From Myxococcus xanthus (GTDB taxonomy: Bacteria; Myxococcota; Myxococcia; Myxococcales; Myxococcaceae), in NCBI RefSeq assembly GCF_006402735.1, contig NZ_CP017174.1, positions 1,677,001 to 1,741,000 on the forward strand: 64,000 nucleotides of DNA, read 5' to 3'. Below are positions 3,436-20,408 of this stretch, in pieces. The stretch's first letter is position 1. Every line of letters starts with the position of its first letter. Made by a program: the position numbers and the translations under genes. Under the pieces are notes generated by a model. That model was given only the letters and a program-made list of their open reading frames with translations. It had not been told where the DNA came from and did not search any database.

Positions 3436-6400
3436 ATGGGTGGCGTGAGAAACGGCAAGAACGCCGGCACGCCGGAGCCCGCAGCGGTCCGACAGGAGGC
3501 GCTGCAGCCCGGCGCGTCCGACGTCAAGCCCGCGGAGGATGTCAGCGACGTGGTGGACCGGCACTTCCGGTCCGCGGCCCGGCAGTTGCGAGAGGGCTCC
3601 GCCGCGCGCGCGTTCGGAGAGCTTGCGCGCGCCAGCCGGACCCTCCCGATGACGCCGCGCCTGGCCGCCGGGATTGTGCGCATGGCGCTGCTGGCGGGCA
3701 CCGAGGCGGCGGCCATCACCCTGCTGGAGGTGGCGCCTACGGTGGTCTCCAGCAGGCGCGCGGTCCGGCGTCAGCTCGCGCGGGTACTGCGACGGGTGGA
3801 CCAACTGCCGCGTGCCGCCGCCGCGCTCGAAGCCCTCCTGGTGGAATGGCCCGAGGACCGGCGTGCCCAGCGCGTGCTCCAGGTGCTGCGTGCGCGCATC
3901 GAGGGCAAGGTGTTGCCCGACGCTGGTGCGAGCGCCCCGAAGGTTGATGAGGACGAGCAGGGTGTGCTGGCACAGCTCCCCGCGCGGAAGGAAGGCGCGC
4001 AGGCCGCGGCCTCTTGGGAGAACGACGACGGCGTCTACCTCATCGAAACGGTGGTGGGGCCGCCGCTTTCTGCCAGGACGGCCTCGGCGTCGGCTTCCAC
4101 GGTAGGTGCGACGGAGGCACGTTCGCAGTCGTTGGCGTCGCAGCGCCCGGAGACTGGTGGAGGAGCGCCAGCGGCCGCGTCACCCGAGCGCGGCGCGGAA
4201 GGGCTTCAGGCGGAGGTTCCGCCCGTCTCGGAACAACGTGGGCCCGTGTCGAGTTCGGTCCCGCCGCCTGGGCCTGACGTGAGCGCGACGACTTCGTCCA
4301 AGGTGGGCGAGGCGCCGCCCGATGCCGATGCGCGTATGCCTCAAATAGCCACGATGGATGCCGAGGCGCCTGTCGCGTCTGTCGTGAGCTCGCTCTCGCA
4401 CGTGGCGGAGTTGTCCCCCGTGGTGCCTGCCGCGAGCCCGCAGAAGCGCGCGGCGGAGCTGCCTGCAACAGCCCCGTCGCCAGTGGCGCCCCGTACCAAG
4501 GGGCGCAAGAGCGCGACGGAACTGCCCGCAGTGACGTCACCCGTGAAGACGCCACCCACTGAATCGCTCAAGACGGTGTTGGAGATGCCGGCGGTGGAGT
4601 TGCCAGCGGTGACTCCTCGCGGTGCCTCTGCTCCCGAAGCACCCAGGACCGTCGTGGAAATGCCGGCGGTGGTTGTGCCACCGGGGGGATTTGACTTCGA
4701 GGCGCGCAAGACAGAAGTGGAGATGCCCGCCCTGGGGGACGCCGCCGTGCCCCCGTCTTCAGGTGCGGTCAAAACGTTCGTCCCGGGGCGCGCGCCACTG
4801 TCCGTGCCTTGGGCCGATGCCCCAGACGACGACGCTGCCGCACCCGCGTCGGTCGCCCGCGAAGTACCGCCGGCACCGCGTCCTGCCAGAGCCACCTTCG
4901 ACGACGCCGACGAAAGTGAAGTCACTTCGGAGGCACAGCCCTTTCTCGGCGGCGCTGCCGCATCGAGTCCGCCACCGCGCCAGCAGGCTCCTGCCTCCTC
5001 GAAGAGCGAGCGACGGAAGCCCCCGCCTCCGTCAGAGGTTCTGCCACCTCCAGCCCCCCCCAGTGCCGCACCCGCGCCGGATGCCCGCTCCGGCACCATG
5101 GAGGTGTCGTTGGCGGAGCTGGAGGCCGCGCTCGCCTCGGCTTCTGGCGATGCACCGAACAAGAAAGGCCGCGCTTTCGAGGCGAGCGCGGGGCTTCCTG
5201 GAGAAGACACCGAGGAGCTGACCCGCTCGCAGAAGGTCGAGGCCCAGCTCATCGCTCGACGGGCCTGGGCCGAACTGGCTCAGCTCTACCTCAAGCGGGC
5301 GGACCGGGCGAAGGACGCGTCCCTGCGCGCCGATGCGTTGGCGCGTCTCGCGGAGCTGATGGAGAACGAGCTCCACGACCCCGCGGGCGCCGCGCGCATG
5401 TACCGGGAAATCGTGGAGCTGACGGGGGACCGCGCCGCGCTTCGAGATCAGGTGCGGTTGCTCGCCGCGAGAGGGGACGCGTCCCTTGTGCGCCGTGCGT
5501 TGGACGAGGCCATCCGGCGCGCGCCCGCTGGCCGCGCACGCGCGGGGGCTCTGCTCACGCGGGGCGAGCGCTGGCTCCACATGGGCGAGCTGAAGAAGGC
5601 TCGCGCGGACTTCGAGGCGGCGGAGTCCTCCTCGCCAGGCCTGCTTCCCGTGCTCGCGGGGATGCTCTGCTGCGTGTCGGACGCGGAACGGCCCGCCATC
5701 GCGGAACGGCTCCGGGTGGCACTGGCGGGGGCACCTCGCCGCGCGCCGGACCGTGTGGAAGCGCTGCGCGTCCTGGCCCAGGTCGCGGAGGAGTCGCTGA
5801 GCGATTTGCGGCTCGCGCAGTGGGCCTGGAGTGAGGTGCTCACGGAGAGTCCCGACAGTGAGCAGGCACGCGTACAGCTCACGATACTGACGCGAAAGCT
5901 CGGCGACACGACGGTGCTCAGCCGGCTTCTGCGTGCTCAGCTCGCCCGCGAATCCCGAGGGCCCGCCGCGCGTCAGGCCCGGCTGGAGCTGGTCGCCACG
6001 TTGGATGCCCAGGGCGACGCCGATGCCGCGCTCGATGAGTTGCGTCAGGCCGTGCGCTACGAGCCGGGCCACAAGGAAGCGTGGCTGATGCTCGTGGAGC
6101 GTCTCCTCGAACGCGACCACTTGGGCGAGGCGGCTTGGGCCCTGGAGCACGCGGCCACCGCCATGGACGACGAGGCGGAGCGGGAGCGCACCTGGGACCG
6201 GCTCGCGCGTTTGTGGCGCGAGGTGATGGGCAATCCCGAGCGCGCGCAAGTCTACGCCCGTCGGGCGGAGGGAATCCGGCAGGCACGAGCAGAGCGTGAA
6301 GAGCCGCCTCCCGAGCCGCCGCGCTCCGCGGTCCCTCGCCGTGAGTCGAGCGGCCCCCGTGCGCCACTCATCGCGGCGCCCCCGGTGCTGACGCAAGCAT

Positions 6401-8442
6401 CCGCGAACCTCCAGAGCCTGGCCAAGGAGGAGACGCCCACCACGGACATCGGGGTTGCCCCATCCGCGCCTGAAAGCGTGGTGCCGGCCCTCGATGAAGC
6501 TGGGAGAGATTCTCCGGGCGCCGCGGTGGAGCAGGGCCGCAAGGCCTCGCCGGAGCCCGTTTCTTCGAAGCGGAAGGGGAAGCGGGAGGCCCGTTCCGAC
6601 CGCGAGGCCCTGTCTGGAATGGACGCCGGGGCGCAAGGCGAGCGGTCCACGGAAGCGCCAGTGCGAGGTGAGTCGCGTGCGCTGGCCCCGGATGCATCGC
6701 TTCCCAAGGGCGCGGCGCGCACTGCCGCAGCTTCCGTGCGAGGGGAGGGACGTTCCGCGGCCTCACCCTCGCGGGGGTCCCCCGCTTTGGCGGATGCTTC
6801 CTCGGCTCCCCAGCCCAAGGCGGCGGCCCGCGCCGCTGTGGCCCCGGCGGATGCTTCCGCTGCGCCTCAGCCCAGGGGTGACGCTCGCGCCGCTGCAACC
6901 TCCGCTGACGTGCTTCCCAAGGGCGAGGCACGCGCCACCGTCTCGCCAGCGCAAAGTGAACCGCGCGTTCCAGTGGAAGCCTTCGCCGCATCGCCACCCA
7001 AGGCAGAAGCACGTGCGCCCGCGTCGTCCCCCAGGGGCGAGGCCCGTAACCCGCCTTCATCCCCGGGCAACACAGCGGCCCCGCAGCCACGCGCTCCCGC
7101 TGAGTCCGCGGACGCCGCCGTCTCCCCCAAGGCGCCGGCTGCTCAACGCTCCCCCGCGTCCTCGCGCGGAGACAAGGCCGCGCCACGCGTCGCCGCGTCC
7201 GGAAGCGAAGCGGAGCAAGGGCCCGCTTCTCGCGACGCGGAGGCCCGAGCACGTCGTCCGCGGGCCACCGACCTCATCACGGGCGAGGTCGTGGACCTCG
7301 GTGACGCTCCCGTTCCGGAGACCCGCGTCATCTCCTGGGAAGCGCCACCCGGCCGGATGGACCCGGTGCGCCGCGTCGTCCGCGCGCGTCCGGAGGGCAC
7401 GGTTTCCGCCCCGGCGCCGGGCCGCACGTTCATCGCGAAGCCTCCCGCGGCGCCCGAGCCTCCTCGGCCTGTCCCCGGCGTCATGGACCCGCGCGAATCA
7501 CCCGCGCCCGCCTATGCGCCATCACCGGACACCGAGCCCGATGCCTTCCGGCACATCCGAGAGCGCCCACTCGACGCGCAGCCCTATCGACTCCTCGCCG
7601 AGTACTTCGACCAGCGAGGAGACCCGGCGCGTGCCTCGCTCATGCGCGAAATCGCCGACGCGCTCGATGGGCTCGAAACTCCCGCGCCGCGCGGCCAGCG
7701 TCCACCGCTGACCTCCGACGAGCGCGCCGGCCTGCGTCACCCCGGTCTGCGCACGCCCTCGGGCGAGCTGCTGGCCTGCACCGGAATCGCGCTCTGCCGC
7801 CTGTTCCCAGCGGAGGGCCGCGCCGCTGGTTCCTCGGAGCTGCTGCGCGCCACCGCGGGCCCCTGTGCGCCCTCCGTGCTCGACGCGCTGCACACCGCCG
7901 CGCGGATGCTGGACGTCCACCTGCCCGAGCTCGTGCTCGCCGAGGACGACGGCCCGCCCTTCACCGCCGTGCACGCGGGCCATCCGCGCCTCCTCGTGGG
8001 CCGGCTCCTGCTGCGTGAGCCCATGCCGCTCCCGGAGCTGCGCTTCCACGTGGGCCGCGCCTTGCTGTCCCTGTCGCCGGACCTGCTCGCGCTCCGGGCC
8101 CTCAAGGGGGGCCAGCTCCTCCGCGCCCTGGCGCTGCTGGCCACCGTGCTGAAGGACCCGCGTGCCTCCGGAGCCGAGGCCCGCGTGGTGCGCGAGTCCC
8201 TCTCGCCGCGCGCCCTGGAGCGCGCCATGGCCTTGCTGGAGCCCGGCACCCAGAACTTCAAGGCTTCGGCGCTCGCAGATGCCGCGCGGGATTCCGCCAA
8301 CCGCGCGGGCCTGGTGGCCTGCGGAAGCATTGGCCCCGCGCTGTCCGTCCTGCGGACCCGCCGGGGCAACGAGGCGGAGCTGGTGGAGCTGCTGCGCTTC
8401 GCCGCGTCGGAGCGCTACCTGCCGCTCCGGGCGCCGCGCTGA
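3436..8442 (+). CDS. Very large TPR protein with low-complexity linkers
   Basis: I do not recognise a named gene. The 1668 residues fall into parts. A helical, TPR-like N-terminus spans about 25-165. A long Pro/Ala/Ser/Glu-rich linker (170-590) contains several copies of an E-(L/M)-P-A motif. A helical TPR-like array spans about 595-955 (for example the segment ending in LRQAVRYEPGHKEAW). A second low-complexity linker (960-1350) has repeated P-(K/R)-G-(E/D)-A-R-A units. The C-terminal helical domain (about 1365-1668) matches no family I know. There is no signal peptide or clear membrane segment, so it is probably cytoplasmic. The architecture suggests a scaffold with protein-binding modules joined by flexible tethers; that role is inferred. 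It ends one base before the stop of the convergent outer-membrane protein gene. Confidence 0.8.
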   Translation: MGGVRNGKNAGTPEPAAVRQEALQPGASDVKPAEDVSDVVDRHFRSAARQLREGSAARAFGELARASRTLPMTPRLAAGIVRMALLAGTEAAAITLLEVAPTVVSSRRAVRRQLARVLRRVDQLPRAAAALEALLVEWPEDRRAQRVLQVLRARIEGKVLPDAGASAPKVDEDEQGVLAQLPARKEGAQAAASWENDDGVYLIETVVGPPLSARTASASASTVGATEARSQSLASQRPETGGGAPAAASPERGAEGLQAEVPPVSEQRGPVSSSVPPPGPDVSATTSSKVGEAPPDADARMPQIATMDAEAPVASVVSSLSHVAELSPVVPAASPQKRAAELPATAPSPVAPRTKGRKSATELPAVTSPVKTPPTESLKTVLEMPAVELPAVTPRGASAPEAPRTVVEMPAVVVPPGGFDFEARKTEVEMPALGDAAVPPSSGAVKTFVPGRAPLSVPWADAPDDDAAAPASVAREVPPAPRPARATFDDADESEVTSEAQPFLGGAAASSPPPRQQAPASSKSERRKPPPPSEVLPPPAPPSAAPAPDARSGTMEVSLAELEAALASASGDAPNKKGRAFEASAGLPGEDTEELTRSQKVEAQLIARRAWAELAQLYLKRADRAKDASLRADALARLAELMENELHDPAGAARMYREIVELTGDRAALRDQVRLLAARGDASLVRRALDEAIRRAPAGRARAGALLTRGERWLHMGELKKARADFEAAESSSPGLLPVLAGMLCCVSDAERPAIAERLRVALAGAPRRAPDRVEALRVLAQVAEESLSDLRLAQWAWSEVLTESPDSEQARVQLTILTRKLGDTTVLSRLLRAQLARESRGPAARQARLELVATLDAQGDADAALDELRQAVRYEPGHKEAWLMLVERLLERDHLGEAAWALEHAATAMDDEAERERTWDRLARLWREVMGNPERAQVYARRAEGIRQARAEREEPPPEPPRSAVPRRESSGPRAPLIAAPPVLTQASANLQSLAKEETPTTDIGVAPSAPESVVPALDEAGRDSPGAAVEQGRKASPEPVSSKRKGKREARSDREALSGMDAGAQGERSTEAPVRGESRALAPDASLPKGAARTAAASVRGEGRSAASPSRGSPALADASSAPQPKAAARAAVAPADASAAPQPRGDARAAATSADVLPKGEARATVSPAQSEPRVPVEAFAASPPKAEARAPASSPRGEARNPPSSPGNTAAPQPRAPAESADAAVSPKAPAAQRSPASSRGDKAAPRVAASGSEAEQGPASRDAEARARRPRATDLITGEVVDLGDAPVPETRVISWEAPPGRMDPVRRVVRARPEGTVSAPAPGRTFIAKPPAAPEPPRPVPGVMDPRESPAPAYAPSPDTEPDAFRHIRERPLDAQPYRLLAEYFDQRGDPARASLMREIADALDGLETPAPRGQRPPLTSDERAGLRHPGLRTPSGELLACTGIALCRLFPAEGRAAGSSELLRATAGPCAPSVLDALHTAARMLDVHLPELVLAEDDGPPFTAVHAGHPRLLVGRLLLREPMPLPELRFHVGRALLSLSPDLLALRALKGGQLLRALALLATVLKDPRASGAEARVVRESLSPRALERAMALLEPGTQNFKASALADAARDSANRAGLVACGSIGPALSVLRTRRGNEAELVELLRFAASERYLPLRAPR

Positions 8443-11802: not shown

Positions 11803-14265
11803 ATGTCAGACCCTTCGCGCACTGTGGACCCCGGTAGCAGGACGGATGGGGCCGGGGTGGTGGTTGAAGGGAGTGTCATGGAACAGCGACCCTTGTGGAG
11901 CGGGGCGGACGCGGCGCCCGCGAAGGCCCCCACGACGCGGGGTTCCAGGGCGGTGCGCACCTCCGGTGTGAAAAGCCGCCGGGAACTGTCCGAGCCCGCC
12001 GCCGCCGCTACAGTGCGCGCCGAAGTGAGCACTCCCGTCCTGGCCTCCATCGCCGTTGGCCGCCCCGTCCGGGGCGAGTTCACCTACACCCTGCCGGACG
12101 AGCTGGCGGGCCGCCTGGAGCCGGGGCAGCGCGTGCTGGTGCCCTTCGGCCGGGGCACGGCGCTGGGCTTCTACCTGGGGCCCGCGTCTCCGCCGACTGG
12201 CGAGAAGGTGAGGCTCAAGGCCGTCCAGCGCGTGCTGGAGGACTCGCCGTCGCTGCCCAAGGACCTCATCGCGCTGCTGCGCTTCGCGGCCGTGCACTAC
12301 CGCTACCCGCTGGGTGAGGTGATTCGCGGCGCGCTGCCGCCCGGCCTGTCGAAGGCCGTGGATGAGAAGGAAGCCAGGCCGGAGGTGCAGCACTTCGCGG
12401 TGGCGCTCGTCAACGAGGTGCCGCCGGAGCTGTCGCGCGCGCCCGCCCAGTCCGCCGCGCTCGCGTACCTGCTGGCGGTGGGAGGCCGCGCGCCGCTGGA
12501 AGAGGTCGCCCACGCGATTCCGGGCGCGCGAGAGACGCTGAAGAAGCTGGCCACGCGCGGCTTCGCCCGTCTGGAGGAGAAGACGGTGGAGGCCAGCGTG
12601 AAGGAGGGTCTGATTCAGGGCCGTCCGGACCACCTCACGCCGGAGCAGGACGCGGCGGGCGTGGTGCTGCGCGCGGCCCTGGACGCGGCGGCCTTCCAAC
12701 CCTTCCTCCTGCACGGCGTCACCGGCAGCGGGAAGACGGAGGTGTACCTGCGCGCGGCCGAGCATGCGCTGTCGCTGGGGAAGGGCAGCCTCATCCTGGT
12801 GCCGGAAATCGCGCTGACGCCGCAGCTGGTGGGCCGCTTCCGCAGCCGCTTCGGCGCGGAGGTGGCGGTGCTGCACTCGGCGCTGAAGGACCGGGAGCGG
12901 CTCTTCCACTGGCAGGCGCTGCGCCGGGGCGACGTGAAGATCGCCGTGGGCGTGCGCTCGGCGGTGTTCGCGCCGGTGGACAACCTGGGGCTCATCGTCG
13001 TGGACGAGGAGCACGACCCGTCCTTCAAGCAGGAGGAGAAGCTGCGCTACCAGGCGCGCGACCTGGCCGTCGTGCGCGGCAAGCAGGCCGGCGCGGTGGT
13101 GGTGCTGGGCTCGGCCACGCCCGCGCTGGAGACGCTGGAGAACGTGAAGCGCGGGCGCTACCAGCTGCTGGAGCTGAAGCGCCGCGTGGATGACCGGCCC
13201 ATGCCCACCATCGAGCTGGTGGACCTGCGCGTGGAGCGTCCGCGCGAGGGCGTGGTGACGGAAGAGGCGCCCATCCTCAGCCCGCCGCTGTTGGAGGCGA
13301 TGGCGGAGACGATTGGCCGCGGCCAGCAGGTCATCCTCTTCCTCAACCGCCGGGGCCACAGCACCGTCCTCCTGTGCGAGGTGTGCGGCCTGTCGCTCAA
13401 GTGCAGCGAGTGTGACGTGTGCCTCACGCACCACCGCTCGCAGAACCGGGTGGTGTGCCACTACTGCGGCTTGGCCATGCCGGTGCCGGAGCAGTGCCTG
13501 GAGTGCACGGGCCCCCTGCTCAAGCTGGGCATCGGCACCGAGCGCGTGGAAGCGGAGGTGCTGGAGCGCATCCCCACCGCGCGTGTCGCCCGGTTGGACC
13601 GGGACTCGGCCAGCAGCGCCGAGCGGCTGACGGAGATGCTGGCCTCGTTCGCGCGCCGGGAGCTGGACGTCCTGGTAGGCACGCAGATGGTGGCCAAGGG
13701 GCACGACTTCCCGGGCGTGACGTTGGTGTGTGTCGTCATGGCGGACACGTCGCTGTCCATTCCGGACTTCCGTGCCGCCGAGCGCACCTTCCATTTGCTC
13801 ACCCAGGTGTCCGGCCGCGCGGGCCGGGGCAAGGACCCGGGGCGGGTGCTGGTGCAGACCTACAATCCGGACGCGGAGCCGGTGCGGCGCGTGCTGGCCC
13901 ATGACTTCGACGGCTTCGCCAATCAAGAACTGGAGTGGCGCAAGGCGCTGGCCTACCCTCCCTATTCGCGCATGGCCGCCGTCCGCCTGGAGGGGGAGCA
14001 TCCCGAACAGACGGCCAGTGTGGCGCGCTCCCTGGGGAACATCGTCTCCCGGCACATGCCCCCTGCGTCCGCCGGGGTCCGCATGCTGGGGCCAGCCTTG
14101 GCGCCCATCTCCCGCATCCGTGGCAAGACGCGCTGGCAACTCCTCTTGAAGGGGCCAACGCATACGGCGCTCGCCCCGCTGCTCGCCCGGGTGGAAGCGG
14201 CCCTGGTCGATGTTCCTTCCGCGGTGAAGGTCGTGATCGACGTGGATCCGGGGGCCATGCTGTAG
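11803..14265 (+). CDS. priA: Primosomal protein N' (replication restart helicase)
   Basis: PriA recognises stalled or repaired forks, unwinds the lagging-strand arm and loads the primosome. From the first ATG the product is 820 residues. The N-terminal 3'-BD domain begins near residue 76 (VLASIAVGRPVRGEF). Walker A is GVTGSGKTEVY near 304, the Walker B box is DEEHD near 400, and a zinc-binding block with nine Cys lies at about 524-570 (begins CEVCGLSLKC). Helicase lobe 2 holds the GTQMVAKGHDFPGV segment. E. coli PriA has 732 residues, so the first 75 residues are an extension. A second ATG at 11878 preceded by GAAGGGAG is a good alternative start. It ends 15 bases before the giant coiled-coil gene. 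Confidence 0.93.
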   Translation: MSDPSRTVDPGSRTDGAGVVVEGSVMEQRPLWSGADAAPAKAPTTRGSRAVRTSGVKSRRELSEPAAAATVRAEVSTPVLASIAVGRPVRGEFTYTLPDELAGRLEPGQRVLVPFGRGTALGFYLGPASPPTGEKVRLKAVQRVLEDSPSLPKDLIALLRFAAVHYRYPLGEVIRGALPPGLSKAVDEKEARPEVQHFAVALVNEVPPELSRAPAQSAALAYLLAVGGRAPLEEVAHAIPGARETLKKLATRGFARLEEKTVEASVKEGLIQGRPDHLTPEQDAAGVVLRAALDAAAFQPFLLHGVTGSGKTEVYLRAAEHALSLGKGSLILVPEIALTPQLVGRFRSRFGAEVAVLHSALKDRERLFHWQALRRGDVKIAVGVRSAVFAPVDNLGLIVVDEEHDPSFKQEEKLRYQARDLAVVRGKQAGAVVVLGSATPALETLENVKRGRYQLLELKRRVDDRPMPTIELVDLRVERPREGVVTEEAPILSPPLLEAMAETIGRGQQVILFLNRRGHSTVLLCEVCGLSLKCSECDVCLTHHRSQNRVVCHYCGLAMPVPEQCLECTGPLLKLGIGTERVEAEVLERIPTARVARLDRDSASSAERLTEMLASFARRELDVLVGTQMVAKGHDFPGVTLVCVVMADTSLSIPDFRAAERTFHLLTQVSGRAGRGKDPGRVLVQTYNPDAEPVRRVLAHDFDGFANQELEWRKALAYPPYSRMAAVRLEGEHPEQTASVARSLGNIVSRHMPPASAGVRMLGPALAPISRIRGKTRWQLLLKGPTHTALAPLLARVEAALVDVPSAVKVVIDVDPGAML

Positions 14266-14280
14266 ACTCGGTGCCCCCCC

Positions 14281-17200
14281 ATGGGCGCACCGGTCCTTCT
14301 CGTCCACGACGACATCGCCAATATCGCCGCCGTGCGGCGCCTGCTCACGCGTGAAGGGTACGAGGTCATCCTCGCCACCTCCGCCGCGGATGCCCTCATT
14401 GCGTACGGGCACCACCTGCCCGTGCTGCTCGTGCTCGCGCCCGGCGTGGAGAGTGGCCGGGGCCACCTCGTGCTGGAGGAGTTGCTCCAGCACCCGGATG
14501 GCAAGTCGGCCCGGGTGTTGCTCCTGGGCGAGTCCATCCCCGGCTTCAGCGCCCCCGTGGCCCAGCTGCCCCTGGAAGGGGCGGCCTTCGTCGAACTGGT
14601 GGATTCGCTGGTCAAGGCCCCCGCGGATGCGGACGCCTGGCACGTGGTGGAGAACCGGGAGCTGCCTCCGTCTGGTGGTGGTGTCTCGGCGGCCACGGGT
14701 GTGGAGTCGGAGTCCTGGCACGCAACCCCGCCGCCCTCGGTGGCGGGCGACCCCGCGCTGGCGAATGCGCTCTTCGGGGACCTGGCGCCGCTGCACCAGA
14801 CGGACTGGGAGCTGGCGGCCATGACGGACGCGGAGCGCTCCGCCCACGAGGCGGCGCAGCAACGCGAGCGTCAGAGCACGCGCGACTTGGACACCGCCAT
14901 GGAGCGGGCGCACCTGGAGGTGGAAGCCCAGGCGATGGCCTCCATCGACTCGGCACTTGCTCCGGACGCGGCGGATGGGTGGGGCGAGCCTTCGCAGGGG
15001 CAGGACTGGGGCTCGGCGGTGGACGCTGAGACGGCCGCCGAGGTGCCCGGAGACGACGCGCAGGGAGCGTCCGTGGGGCTTGAGGGAGAGGACGCCGCGC
15101 CGGCTGAGGATGCGCCGCCGGTGGGACAGCTGGCATGGACGGAGGAGGCTGTTTCTCAGCCTTCGATGCGCACGGCGGCCCTGGCGCCTCGGTTGGGCGA
15201 TGAGGGGTTCTTCGACGTCGACACGCCGGAGGGCCCGACGGGAGACGCCCTCTCCGCGGCGGAGGCGGAGCTGGCCGCCATGCGTGGGGGGCCTTCTTTC
15301 GACTCCGTGAGCGCGGAGGGCTCGCCCTGGACGGAGCTGCCTCCGGACCCCGAGATGGCGCACGCTGGGCGTGTGGGCCCGAGGGGGGATGGGGCGGGCG
15401 ATGTACCCGGTGAGGCGCCGTCCACGGAGCCCGAGCCCGAGCAGGCGGTGGACGCCGAGCCGCAATCGCCGTCATCGGAGACGGAAGACACGTGGGGCAC
15501 GGAGGCGGCGCTCGGTGAGCCCGCGGGCACGCCGGAGCCGGAACAGGCCGCTGAGGAGCCGGACGCGGCGGCGGTCTCCGCGTCCAACTGGGAGTTGCTG
15601 GAGGCGGAGCTGCAATCCGCGTCAGCCCAGTCCCAGGATGACGAGGCGCCGCAGGCGTCGGGCGTGGGGGATGACTGGTTCGACGGGGAGTCCACCGAGA
15701 CGCCGAAGGAGGAGCCTCGCAGCATCGGGGAGGATTGGTTCGACTCGGATGCGGAGGCGTCGAGCCCCGCGCCAGAGGCGCCGCCCGTCGCCGAGACGCC
15801 CGCCCCGGGCGCCGGTGGTTTCGCGGTCCCCGCGCTGATGGCGCAGTGGCAGGCTCAGCAGGAGGAGGCGGAGCGCCAGCTCGAGGAAGCTCACGCGCGT
15901 GTGAGCGCCGTCACCGAGGCGCTGGAGCGGGAAGCCGCGCTGCGCCGCGAACTCGCGCAGCAGGTCCAGGGGCTCCAGGAGCGGCTCGCGGCGGAAGAAG
16001 AGGAGCACTCGCGGGAGTCCTTGCTGCGGGCGGAAGCCGAGGCGGAGCTGGAAGGGCTCCGTCAGCGGGAGTCGCCTTCGTCCATGGACGCCGCCACAAG
16101 GGCGGCCCTGGCGCGCGACGCGCAGGAGACTGGCGACCTGTCGGCGCTGCGCGAGGAGCTGGAAGCGCAAGTCCGGCTCCGTGAGGAAGCGGAGACGCTC
16201 ACCGCCGAGGTCGAGGCCCAGGTCCGCCAGTTCGAGGATGCCTGCGCGGAGGCGGAGCTGCGGGCCATCGACGCGGAGGCCCGCGCGGAGGCCGAGACGC
16301 AGGCCCGTGAGGCAGCGGAGCTTCGCGCAGCGGCGAGCACGCAGGCGTTGCAGGCGCTCGAAGCGCGCCTGGAGTCAGAGGCCGCGGGGCGTGTCGTTTC
16401 GGAGGCCCGCGCCGAGTCGGAGTCCAAGGCCCGTCAGGCCGCGGAGAGCCGGGTCGAGTCCGCCGAGGACCTGACCTCGGTGTCGGAAGCGCGTATCGAC
16501 GCGGAAGCCCGTGCCCGCGAGGCCGCGGAGGCCCGTGCTGATGTGGAAGCACAGGCCCGGCTCGAAGCGGATACGCGTGCGCGGAGCCTGTCGCGAGCCC
16601 TTGAGGAAGCAGAGACGCGTGCGGAGCTGGCGGCGCGTGCACAGGCGGAGGCCGAGGCGCGCGCGGAGCTGGCTGCGCGTGCGTTGGCGGAAGCGGAAGC
16701 CCAATCGGAACTGGTTGCTCGGGCCCTGGCGGACGCCGAGGCGCGTGTGCAGGCGGAAGTCGGTGCGGACGCCCGTGTGGAGTCCGTGGCCACTGCGCTA
16801 GCCGAAGCGGAGGCCCGAGCGGAGATTGAATCCACGGCCCGCGTGGATGCCGAAGCACGGCTTGCGTCCGCGGAGGCAGCGCGTGCCGAAGCCTCGGCGC
16901 GGTCGGAGATTGAGGCCACGGCGCGCGCCGAGGCCGACGCCCGGGTTGAATCGGTCGCGACGGCCCTGGCTGAGGCGGATGCGCGGGCAGAGATTGAGTC
17001 CGCGGCCCGTGTGGATGCTGAGGCGCGTCTGGAGTCCATTGCCACGGCGCGTGCGGAGGCAGAGGCGCGAGCCGAGATTGAGGCAACGGCGCGAGTGGAA
17101 GCTGAGGCGCGTGCTGAAGCCGAGGCGCTGGCTCGCCAGGCGGCGGATGCCCGAGCCGACGCCGAGGCACGCGCACGTGAGGAAGTGGAAGCCCGCGTCA

Positions 17201-19785
17201 CCTCCGAGTCTGATGCGCGCACCGGACAGGAAGCGGAGGCCCGTGCGAACGAGGAGGCTCGCGCGAAGAAGGCGGAAGCCCGGGCTCAGCAAGAAGCGGA
17301 GCGACGTGCAAACGCGGAGGCCCAGGCTAACAGCGAGGCTGCGGCCCGGACGGAGGCCGAAGCCCGTGCGGAGCAAGAAGCCGCTGCACGACTTGAGGCC
17401 GAAGCCCGCGCTGAGCGAGCGACAGCTGCGCTGAAAGACGCCGAGGCCCGAGCCGAGACTGCGGCAGCCGCACTGAAGGACGCCGAGGCCCGAGCCGAGA
17501 GCGCATCGGCCGCGTTGCATGAAGCGGAGGCCCGAACCGAGAGTGCTGTCGCTGCGCAGCAAGCGGCCGAAGCCCGAGTTGAGAGCACAGTAGCCGCATT
17601 GCAAGCCGCGGAGGCCCGCGCCGAGGCAGCGGCGGTCGCAAGACAAGCCGCGGAGGCCCAAACCGAAATTGAGGCCGTCGCGCGACGCGAAGCCGAAGCC
17701 CGCGCGGAAATCGAGGCCGAGGCCCGAGCCGCAGCCGAGACCCGAGCAGAAGCCGAGGTGGCCGCACGGTCCGAAATCGAGGCCCGCGCCGAGCGCGAGG
17801 CGAAGCTGCGTGCGGCAATCGAGGTCCGTGCGGAAAGCGAGGCGTCCTCGCGAACCGATGCGGACACGCGTGCTTCCCGTGAGGCCGAGGCTCGAGCAGA
17901 AGCCGAGGCACGTGCCGAGCACGAAGCCACGTTGCGCGCCGAAGCCGAGGTGCTAGCGAAGGCGGAGACCCAGGCACGCGCGGAGGCTGAAGCCCAGGCC
18001 ACCGCGGAGGCGGAGCGGCGCGCGGAAGCCGAAGCCCGTGCCGAACGTGAAGCGCAGGCCCGTGCCGAAGCCGAAGCCCGCGCCGAACGCGAAGCGCAGG
18101 CCCGTGCCGAAGCGGAAGCTCGCGCCGAGCAGGAGGCCCAGCAGCGCGCCGAAGCGGAAGCACAGGCCAGGCGAGAAGGAGAGTCCCTCGCCGCCGAGAA
18201 GGCACGCGCCCGAACGGAAGAAGAACACCGCGTCACCCAGGCCGAAGCCGAGTCCCAGGCCCGTGCCGAAGCGGAAGCCCGCGCCGATGCCGAGGCGAAG
18301 CGCCGTGCCGAGGCCGAAGCCCGCGTCCAGCAGTCCGCCCAGGCCGAAGCCGAAGCGACCGCCCGTGCGAAGGCCGAAGGCCGCCACCGAACGGCCCTCG
18401 AAGTCCGCCTGGACGCGGAGGCAAAGCAGCGCACGACGCTGGAATCCAGGCTCGAAGAAGAGTCCCGTGCCCGCAACCAATCCGAGTCCCGGCTCCTCGC
18501 GGAGAACGCCAGAATCTCCGAGGAACTCGCCGCGCTCCGCCTCGAGCACCAGCAGTCCCGAGAGAACCTGGCGAAGGAGCGCGAAGCACGCGAGTCCCTC
18601 GAGCAAGCCTTGGAGACACTGCGCACCGAGTCCGCCGAACAGCGGGCCCGCTCCGAGCGCGAGCGCCTGGAACTGGAGGAGCGCGCGCTCCGAGACGCGG
18701 AGGAGGCCGCCGCACAGGCCCGAGCATCCATGCTTCCCCTGGAAGCACCTCCCGGCAGACCCGAGCTGGCCGTGGCCCGCAGTGGCAGCGTCACCCAGGA
18801 TGGCCTGACGAAGCTGGTGCTCCGGCTCTGCGAGGCCCGCATGGAGATGCGGCTGGAGCTGAAGGTGATGAACGCCCTGCGCGTCCTCTGGCTGCGGGAT
18901 GGAGCGCTCGTGGGAGCCGTCTCCTCCGCGCAGGGGGAGTCGTTGGTCGACCGGGCCCGCGCGGACGGACTCATCGACGCGCGACAGGAAGGGGAGCTGC
19001 GGCTGGTGCGCAGCGCCACCACGGCCGCGCTGCTGGACGCGCTGCGGGGCCGGGGCTACCTGCGGGAATCCGAAGCCGTGCCCCTGGTCCAGCGCTACAC
19101 CGAGCAGGTCTTCCTGGACGCGCTGGCGGAGCCCTCGACGCTCTACCGCCTGGTGCCGGAGCCAGCGCCGCACGAGGTGGCGCTCGCCGCCGCCACGCGT
19201 CCGCCGCTGCACCTGTTGGCCGAGGCACTGCGCAACACCCTCACCTCCGAATCCCTGCTGGAGGCCGCCGGAAGCCTGCGCGCGCGCGTCACTCGCGGCG
19301 ACATCCACCTGGCCCCGGATGACTTCGGCCTGCCTTCGCGGGACCTCCAGCTCCTGTCCCAGGTGGATGGAGAGCACACGCTGGAGGCGCTGCTCCTGGG
19401 GGCGGGGCTGCCGCAGGACTCGGCCTTGAAGTCGCTCGCGGTGGCGCGGACGCTGGGGCTCGTCTCGCTGGCGCCCGCCACGGACGAAGACGCCGGGGAC
19501 CTGCCGCCGGAGCTGGACGTCCGGCGCCTGGAATCCAAGTTCGAGGAGATCCAGGACGCGGACTACTTCACGGTGCTGGGGCTGGCCCGCTCGGCGGGGG
19601 GCGAGGAGGTCAAACGCGCCTACGAGCTGCTGGCCGCCGAGTTCCACCCGCTGCGCTTCGCGGGGCACCCCGACCCGGCGCTCCAGCACCGCGCGCAGCA
19701 GATTCGCACCGTGCTCGCCGAGGCCGCTCAGGCCCTGGGAGACGACCGGCTGCGCGCGGAGTACGCCCGAAGCCTGCTCGACTGA
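14281..19785 (+). CDS. Giant pseudo-receiver / coiled-coil / PATAN-like / J-like protein
   Basis: I cannot name this 1834-residue protein. Residues 3-115 look like a response-regulator receiver: VLLVHDD gives the acidic pair at 10-11, but where the phospho-acceptor Asp belongs the sequence reads LLVLAPG. An acidic, Glu/Ala/Pro-rich linker runs to about 515 and contains two WFDS/WFDG motifs. Residues about 520-1485 are one long Ala/Glu/Arg coiled coil, much of it in 14-residue units. A DUF4388/PATAN-like domain follows at about 1500-1720. The last 75 residues (from [13 protein letters not shown]) look like a J domain, but the HPD motif reads HPL. No export signal is present. Layout recalls Myxococcus motility scaffolds with a pseudo-receiver and coiled coil (AglZ, FrzS); a polarity or signalling scaffold role is inference. 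Confidence 0.85.
16250..18340 (+). repeat. Degenerate 42-base (14-residue) tandem coiled-coil repeats
   Basis: Within the giant gene the coding sequence is built from degenerate 42-base units encoding 14-residue, two-heptad blocks. Clear examples are three consecutive units around 18040-18165 ([14 protein letters not shown] repeated with small changes) and the [10 protein letters not shown]-type units at 17430-17640. Third-position differences between units show that the array is old rather than freshly amplified. Confidence 0.75.
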
Positions 19786-19801: not shown

Positions 19802-19855
19802 GGCCTCCCGGGAGTGCAGGGAGGCCCACCCGGAGCGGTTGCCCGTCCGCTCCGG
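19802..19855 (+). terminator. Two tandem hairpins before def
   Basis: Hairpin 1 pairs GGCCTCCC (19802-19809) with GGGAGGCC (19819-19826) around a 9-base loop. Hairpin 2 pairs CCGGAGCGG (19830-19838) with CCGCTCCGG (19847-19855) around an 8-base loop. They lie just after the giant gene and just before the def start. There is no long T run, so they may be a terminator of the upstream gene or structure in the def leader; the second stem touches the GGGGAG at 19854-19859. Confidence 0.5.
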
Positions 19856-19874
19856 GGAGATTAAGACGGCGTCC

Positions 19875-20408
19875 ATGGTCCGCGAGATCCTCATCTGGCC
19901 CGACCCTGTCCTGAAGCAGAAGGCCAAGCCGGTGGCGAAGGTGGATGACTCCACCCGCACGCTGGTGAAGGACATGTTCGAAACGATGTACTCCGCTGAA
20001 GGCGTGGGCCTGGCCGCCCCGCAAATCGGCGTGCTCCAGCGCGTCATCGTGCTGGACACCACGCACAGCCAGCCGGAGCTGAAGCCCATTGCGATGATCA
20101 ATCCGGAGATCATCGCCATGGAAGGCGACACGACCTACAACGAAGGCTGCCTGTCCATCCCCGGCGAGGCCGCGGATGTCGACCGGGCCGCCGTGGTCAC
20201 CGTGAAGTTCCTGGACCCGGACGGCCAGGAGCAGACGCTGCGCTGTGACGGGCTGCTGTCCATCGCGGTGCAGCACGAGACGGACCACCTCGACGGCACC
20301 GTCTTCGTGGACCACATCTCGTCCCTGAAGCGCGAGTTCATCCGCAAGCGGATGAAGCGCCTCAAGACTTCGCGCGAGCGCGAGGCGAGCGCGCCGGCGT
20401 CTCCGTAG
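19875..20408 (+). CDS. def: Peptide deformylase
   Basis: The enzyme removes the N-formyl group from nascent proteins at the ribosome exit. The 177-residue product contains all three family motifs: GVGLAAPQIG, EGCLSIP (metal-binding Cys) and QHETDHLDG (two metal-binding His and the catalytic Glu). I start it at the ATG at 19875, which gives the usual MVREILIWPDPVL opening; an in-frame TTG at 19839 would add 12 residues that fall inside a hairpin. The C-terminal 47 bases overlap the convergent nth gene. Confidence 0.93.
   Translation: MVREILIWPDPVLKQKAKPVAKVDDSTRTLVKDMFETMYSAEGVGLAAPQIGVLQRVIVLDTTHSQPELKPIAMINPEIIAMEGDTTYNEGCLSIPGEAADVDRAAVVTVKFLDPDGQEQTLRCDGLLSIAVQHETDHLDGTVFVDHISSLKREFIRKRMKRLKTSREREASAPASP

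Follow-up and report, generated by a model that had tools for sequence, protein, structure and literature searches.

Organization of the priA-def locus

The window analyzed here is a 64,000-nucleotide stretch of NZ_CP017174.1, the single 9.3-Mb contig of a Myxococcus xanthus genome. Between priA and the peptide deformylase gene def lies an intact open reading frame that begins with ATG and encodes a single protein of 1834 residues, exactly as the original prediction had it (Table 1). This gene and priA are possibly carried on one transcript. The closest loci in our contig scan, from Myxococcus xanthus AM003 and Myxococcus sp. CA023, share 99% identity with the protein across its last 340 residues. 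Long open reading frames on the minus strand overlap the gene (for example, 11806-15465 and 17953-19689), and the GC content by codon position does not decide between the strands because the values for the gene (0.83/0.54/0.81) and for the antisense frame 17953-19689 (0.85/0.50/0.83) are alike. The plus strand is preferred, and the antisense frames were set aside, because the plus-strand protein has domain matches and conserved orthologs. No motility family was found among the neighboring genes that were scanned. Elsewhere in the window, positions 3436-8442 encode a Pro/Ser/Ala-rich protein of 1668 residues with weak TPR matches.

Phage records gave no match to the N-terminal 120 residues of the 1834-residue protein. 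A literature search, with most subscription papers outside its scope, returned no description of the protein among the matches listed; for DUF4388, the same search returned one paper, which in the part available concerns a Chloroflexi nitrite reductase.

Table 1. Coordinates, in the window, of the 1834-residue protein, its predicted parts and the flanking genes
Feature	Position	Strand	Basis
priA	11803..14265	+	15 bp upstream of the 1834-residue gene
CDS, whole protein	14281..19785	+	1834 aa; orthologs found
Pseudo-receiver, residues 1-115, alpha4 region deleted	14281..14625	+	Alignment, AlphaFold2, Foldseek, Pfam
Acidic pair Asp10-Asp11, kept	14308..14313	+	Family alignment
Ala53 replacing the phospho-acceptor Asp	14437..14439	+	Family alignment
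Acidic Pro/Gly-rich linker, probably disordered, residues 116-515	14626..15825	+	Composition
Ala/Glu/Arg helical rod, residues about 516-1487 (Pro-free 600-1485)	15826..18741	+	Composition, helix propensity
42-bp (14-residue) tandem repeat arrays of the rod	16605..18161	+	Repeat analysis
PATAN/DUF4388 domain, residues 1502-1652	18784..19236	+	Pfam, model
Winged-helix-like segment, residues about 1655-1733	19243..19479	+	Model secondary structure; weak structural matches
J-like domain, residues 1761-1828	19561..19764	+	Pfam, Foldseek, VIA
HPL replacing HPD, residues 1789-1791	19645..19653	+	Family alignment
def (peptide deformylase)	19839..20408	+	First listed start codon 53 bp past the stop

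The N-terminal end is a receiver fold that lacks the phospho-acceptor

In the whole-protein Pfam search, Response_reg matches residues 5-81 below its cut-off (E = 0.0035; 17.9 bits against 30.2), and the same profile matches 46 of 48 N-terminal segments of relatives at E ≤ 0.01. The AlphaFold2 model of the N-terminal 130 residues, built from an alignment of orthologs, has a receiver fold (pLDDT 87.2), and a Foldseek search with the predicted receiver returned RR468 as the best match (1.9e-7), with the FrzS receiver 2i6f at rank 5 (4.5e-7). The (beta/alpha)5 architecture is present, with the alpha4 part missing. The Asp and Lys expected of a phosphorylatable response regulator are both gone, with Ala53 at the phospho-Asp position and Leu96 at that of the conserved Lys. 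Among the 68 resolved receivers of the family, a count that includes the window protein and two miniature relatives but not L138 and L139, which gave no receiver match, the phospho-Asp is lost in 64 and the Lys is kept in three. The residue at the site is Ala in 39, Ser in 11, Gln in nine, Asp in four (L091, L108, L111, and L140), Gly in two, Asn in two, and Thr in one. In L091, L108, and L111, which belong to family f11, the Asp is kept and the acidic pair is altered. The placement of Ala53 holds across the family alignment, so that the receiver fold without a phospho-acceptor that had been read from this one sequence is confirmed, and a misplaced Asp does not account for it.

The acidic pair of the family receivers is mostly retained, with Asp10 present in 62 of the 68 and Asp11 in 52. 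A receiver with no remaining activity would have no use for this pair, and its retention counts against reading this end as a dead one.

The C-terminal head combines a PATAN domain with a J fold that lacks HPD

Pfam places DUF4388 at residues 1502-1652 of the whole protein with 23.8 bits (E = 4.9e-5), against a cut-off of 25; the isolated C-terminal module exceeds this cut-off at 27.0 bits, and the genome search gave 28.7 bits. Among 58 C-terminal modules of relatives, DUF4388 is matched in 57 and DnaJ in 50 at E ≤ 0.01. The PATAN-like domain that had been proposed is thereby borne out by a curated profile; the Foldseek and VIA lists for this module consist mainly of matches to the J part. The helical segment between PATAN and J resembles a winged helix in the model, a label that we hold weakly. 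KICSTOR/GATOR matches to this segment have middling Z scores and were not used.

The J-like domain is recognized by Pfam above the cut-off (DnaJ, residues 1761-1828, E = 6.4e-7, 29.8 bits against 27.8). The AlphaFold2 model of the C-terminal module, from the ortholog alignment, contains a J fold of the Hsp40 type (pLDDT 92.3), and VIA aligns 70 residues of the J-like part at an rmsd of 2.0 with Z scores of up to 10.2. Foldseek matches to the J-like part reach a probability of 1.00 and a TM score of up to 0.83 on the target, none of them below an E value of 0.001. The HPD motif required of an Hsp70 co-chaperone is missing, reading HPL in this protein, and it is absent from 86 of 88 J-like domains of the family, a set that includes the window protein and leaves out the two miniature relatives. 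The triplets at this site are HPL in 33 rows, DPL in 10, DPI in five, NPL in four, HPM and HPA in three each, and HPD in two (L082 and L105); the remaining triplets occur once or twice each, for at least 30 different triplets overall. Since the replacements vary at both the J site and the receiver site, the trait that these sequences share is suggested to be loss of function, not the acquisition of one particular new residue. Within the same genome, 15 J-domain matches were found, and the 1834-residue protein is the only one without the Asp of HPD; of the other 14, 12 read HPD, one SPD, and one TPD.

A second HPD occurs at residues 1796-1798, at the start of helix III. It was rejected as the true motif because HPL directly follows helix II and because the Pro-Asp that matches the downstream HPD is not general in the family, being present in 47 of 88 rows among the matches listed. 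The J-like domain reading HPL thus stands as originally described, with the alignment holding across the family. Helix II of J domains carries a basic patch that faces Hsp70. Its charge is −2 in the window protein, against means of −1.19 in the family and −0.11 in the sister group described below, a comparison that is weak because the sister group is also near zero.

The rod is helix-prone but differs from a leucine-heptad coiled coil

Residues 600-1485 contain no proline and consist of 33% Ala, 24% Asp/Glu, 16% Arg/Lys, and 11% Leu/Ile/Val/Met/Phe. The coiled coil of 960 residues that had been predicted is accordingly upheld in part: a helix-prone region spans residues about 516-1487, but its coiled-coil nature is not established because of this composition, with only 11% LIVMF. 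At the best a/d register, LIVMF residues occupy a fraction of 0.26 in the rod, compared with 0.53 for AglZ and 0.51 for FrzS, both taken from this genome, so the rod is not a long Leu-heptad coil; when Ala is counted as well, the value rises to 0.63, level with that of AglZ (0.62). Glu-Arg pairs four residues apart are 2.6 times as frequent as expected in the rod, against 1.3 times in AglZ and 1.4 times in FrzS. The Glu/Arg spacing favors a self-supporting helix and the Ala-rich a/d positions are compatible with an alanine coil, so that by composition the rod appears closer to a helix that supports itself or packs through alanine than to a Leu coiled coil. Relative to two close relatives, the rod differs by insertions or deletions of 14 and 56 residues, in addition to ones of 1, 2, 3, 17, and 20. 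NCBIfam matches of the rod to ClfA/ClfB/Sdr adhesins (37-58 bits against cut-offs of at least 999) reflect composition and were rejected.

Resemblance to FrzS, AglZ, and other known systems

The original prediction placed the protein on the plan of AglZ and FrzS, a pseudo-receiver followed by a coiled coil. FrzS of this genome (P0004) was recognized through a match to 2gkg (1.4e-74), and locus L151 is presumably AglZ. Like the 1834-residue protein, FrzS begins with a receiver fold that lacks the phospho-Asp, which a low-complexity linker joins to a long helical rod; AglZ likewise has an Asp-less receiver at its N terminus and a rod about 1,100 residues long. The kinship is nonetheless weak. 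The receivers of AglZ and FrzS match each other at 71 bits, whereas the window receiver matches AglZ at 30 and FrzS at 34 bits. The rod of FrzS is of the Leu-heptad type and that of AglZ is Leu/Gln-rich with LIVMF at a/d, and a search of both proteins with the PATAN-J profile found no match in either. Passages of PMC1974792 describe His92 and Tyr102 of FrzS as essential and report equivalents in AglZ; in the window receiver, the alignment shows that the alpha4 segment with these residues is deleted.

Two further comparisons concern the other parts. Pam16/Tim16, a small HPD-less J-like protein of mitochondrial import that pairs with Pam18, resembles the 1834-residue protein in keeping a J fold without HPD and differs from it in that it is not known to have a receiver, PATAN, or rod. 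The PATAN-CheY regulators of Synechocystis (PixE, PixG, LsiR, PilG, and TaxP2), as described in the available passages of PMC7690835 and PMC10519157, likewise combine PATAN and a receiver in one protein. In PixG, PilG, and TaxP2, however, PATAN is N-terminal according to the part of PMC10519157 at hand, unlike its C-terminal position here, and the descriptions of these regulators in the passages available to us mention no rod or J domain.

A family at the priA-def locus and a sister group that mostly keeps both active sites

Relatives were collected in a first contig scan, which required exact short peptides, and in profile searches that covered Myxococcota genomes. The scan supplied 25 of its 26 loci; L034, an ordinary J protein and the only match outside Myxococcota, was dropped. 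Another 60 from the Myxococcota genomes brought the set to 85 loci. Modules were extracted with a first profile from 84 of the 85, and L116 and L138-L140 were added later through a deeper profile. L124, which reads HPD, was dropped as doubtful, as it adjoins neither priA nor def and matches only the last part of the module. A locus at 95% identity, L012 (BNCN01000002.1), is titled Comamonas sp. KCTC 72670; the assembly is probably mislabeled and myxobacterial. A profile of close relatives matched 138 of 195 Myxococcota genomes at 1e-10, and the deeper profile matched 186 of 195 at 1e-12, a count that includes paralogs (up to 12 matches per genome, with ten candidates scored in most). The search for orthologs that the original prediction had called for found relatives in many families of the phylum. 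Of 82 N-terminal parts besides that of the window protein, 17 gave no receiver match, and 16 of these frames run past the available stretch.

The gene order is recurrent. Where 300 bp or more of sequence precedes the receiver, priA lies within 700 bp upstream in 52 of 62 loci (in the exceptions L074 and L115, the priA match falls beyond this limit), and where 700 bp or more follows the stop, def lies downstream in 70 of 81 loci. Both ends are at least 70% identical among close relatives, and the linker ranges from 64 to 1,864 residues across resolved members, some of which have almost none. Judged by sequence, the 1834-residue protein is the long version of a family that occupies the priA-def locus in many Myxococcota families, and its giant size is a variable trait. 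Two miniature relatives of roughly 290 and 235 residues, L154 and L161 (genomes G040 and G191), occupy the site between priA and def and consist of only the receiver and J-like ends, without PATAN/winged-helix; their receiver sites read Ala and Thr, and their J sites APE and SPI. Pfam by itself detects a single end of each, and that weakly (J at 0.0034 in G191, receiver at 0.0098 in G040), and the family profiles match both ends (1.1e-5 to 2e-26). Because these miniatures lack the PATAN/winged-helix part and some members are almost without linker, neither part is indispensable.

A sister group, comprising L066 of the same genome and L141-L148, arranges receiver, PATAN, winged-helix-like part, and J domain in the order seen in the family (no receiver was found in L147) and differs from the family in extending past J, with a longer C terminus that we take to be TPR. 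We know of no name for such receiver-PATAN-winged helix-J-TPR proteins of Myxococcota. In contrast to the family, these proteins keep the Asp in seven of eight resolved receivers and HPD in nine of nine J domains. The exception, L066 (G000:C1:5881500-5886500), has Ser at the receiver site with HPD kept, which amounts to the loss of one of the two active sites. Neither priA nor def was matched in the sister-group stretches that were fetched. The genome also encodes a second long frame, of 1871 residues, at L067 (G000:C1:2325000-2335000), with a weak DUF4388 match near the start, an HPD J domain at 1643-1709, and TPRs; nearby is a frame of 958 residues whose receiver retains both Asp and Lys.

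In a quick, unrooted tree of 68 of 97 modules (the 29 left out are mostly near-duplicates or cut frames), the sister group is the one nearest to the family, and a branch with an SH-aLRT of 98 separates its 9 rows from 59 family rows, the family label resting on the profile match and not on a priA-def setting checked row by row. L066, L102, and L148 have long branches; that of L066 is very long and its placement unsure. Since no root was inferred, the direction of change, namely loss of active sites and of the C-terminal extension and gain of the rod, is something that we infer from the state usual for receivers and J domains. The losses are not universal, because four receivers keep the Asp and two J-like domains read HPD, and they may have occurred more than once.

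Possible roles in binding, in polarity, or with the neighboring genes

Because both ends retain their folds but not the residues on which their usual chemistry depends, a function by binding is what one would naturally infer, and the original prediction to this effect is supported at that level by the 68 receivers, the 88 J-like domains, and the sister group as control. One version of such a function is that of a polarity factor like FrzS or AglZ, in which the pseudo-receiver would mark a pole, the rod would dimerize as a coiled coil, and PATAN would recruit the pilus extension ATPase or MglA-linked proteins. The FrzS-like fold returned by Foldseek speaks for this, as do reports, in passages of PMC10519157 and PMC7690835, that PATAN regulators bind the pilus motor PilB in Synechocystis and, in part of PMC4316618, that some mglA and mglB genes have PATAN genes in their vicinity. 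PilB was matched in 193 of 195 Myxococcota genomes, 167 of them with a score above the family cut-off, and MglA in 182 of these 195, but these genes are equally at home where the family is not strongly matched: among 26 such genomes, PilB is present in 26 and MglA in 24. Co-occurrence with PilB or MglA was rejected as a clue to a partner, since both are near-universal in Myxococcota, including genomes without a strong family match, and so do not discriminate. With the His92/Tyr102 segment missing, a rod that is not of the Leu-heptad type, receivers only distantly alike, and no motility family among the scanned neighbors, we consider this polarity role unlikely. The pilus and polarity machinery is nonetheless the first place to look for partners, as a candidate only, because PATAN binds PilB elsewhere and at times sits near mglA/mglB, and because SgmX, FrzS, and SopA are polar regulators acting on M. 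xanthus pili. We read the passages of PMC11580455 that describe these three regulators as saying that they have no enzymatic activity of their own.

The recurrent order priA-gene-def, with the 15-bp gap to priA in the window, could instead point to a factor of replication restart or translation start-up that acts with PriA or peptide deformylase. Gene order alone, however, may merely reflect shared housekeeping expression, and priA and def can do without an intervening gene, as is seen in genomes chosen for lacking a strong family match. In 20 stretches after priA, examined from these 26 genomes, the two genes adjoin with nothing between them in nine; seven have no def, two carry a miniature relative at the site (G040 and G191), one has about 750 bp without a profile match between priA and def (G055), and in one def is present with priA unmatched (G166). 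A functional tie to PriA or deformylase therefore strikes us as quite improbable. Least probable of the three, in our estimation, is a regulator of Hsp70, whose HPD-less J domain would pair with or compete against active J proteins such as L066, in the manner of Pam16 with Pam18. In its favor, a J fold is kept without HPD, the genome also encodes a sister-group protein in which receiver, PATAN, and presumed TPR accompany a J domain with HPD, and the two miniature relatives retain the J-like end. A conserved docking motif, however, would not be expected to vary as widely by lineage as the residues at the HPD site do.

A putative two-headed tether

With both active sites lost, the signal is unlikely to be either phosphate or Hsp70, and since the dead ends sit on a helical rod and relatives in many families of the phylum share its gene address, the protein is probably a tether, not a switch or chaperone. 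The conservation of both ends, around a middle that varies freely, is consistent with a tether carrying two binding heads. On balance, and with a little more than even confidence, we regard the 1834-residue protein as a nonenzymatic intracellular tether that would act independently of phosphorylation and Hsp70, a member of a locus family in which dead heads have been reused. Counted against the tether is that several indels of the rod are not multiples of seven.

Under the tether model, the ancestor would have been an intact receiver-PATAN-winged helix-J-TPR protein, perhaps a phosphorylation-gated J protein, that settled between priA and def. There it would have lost phosphorylation and Hsp70 stimulation and taken on a new use as an adaptor with two heads, expressed together with the housekeeping genes beside it. 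The receiver-like head would bind one partner and the PATAN/J-like head another, with the rod setting the spacing of the heads, at up to about 130 nm if it forms one continuous helix (886 residues × 0.15 nm). Rod length would change partly in 14-residue steps, and regulation would come from the binding partners instead of phosphorylation.

A broader proposal, which we offer as a speculative possibility, is that the priA-def family as a whole consists of pseudo-signaling tethers in which receiver and J serve as pure binding heads and the middle as an evolvable ruler of 64 to 1,864 residues, grown partly by 42-bp repeats, and that it may be a general spatial organizer of the myxobacterial cell.

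Significance

Pseudo-receivers are common. How the bacterial ones switch is said, in the part of PMC12632262 available, to remain a mystery. What is new here is the evolution of a family, spread over many Myxococcota families and mostly at the priA-def locus, with its sister group as a natural control. That the giant size is a variable trait of the family makes the find less exotic than first stated; that it belongs to a locus family of wide distribution, for which a control group comes built in, makes it a better one. Because the sister group shares the domain order and has mostly kept both active sites, comparison of the two could show what roles receiver and J domains take on once their chemistry is gone. 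If the protein is a tether, its lineage-specific linker lengths would provide a natural series for studying spacing as a function.
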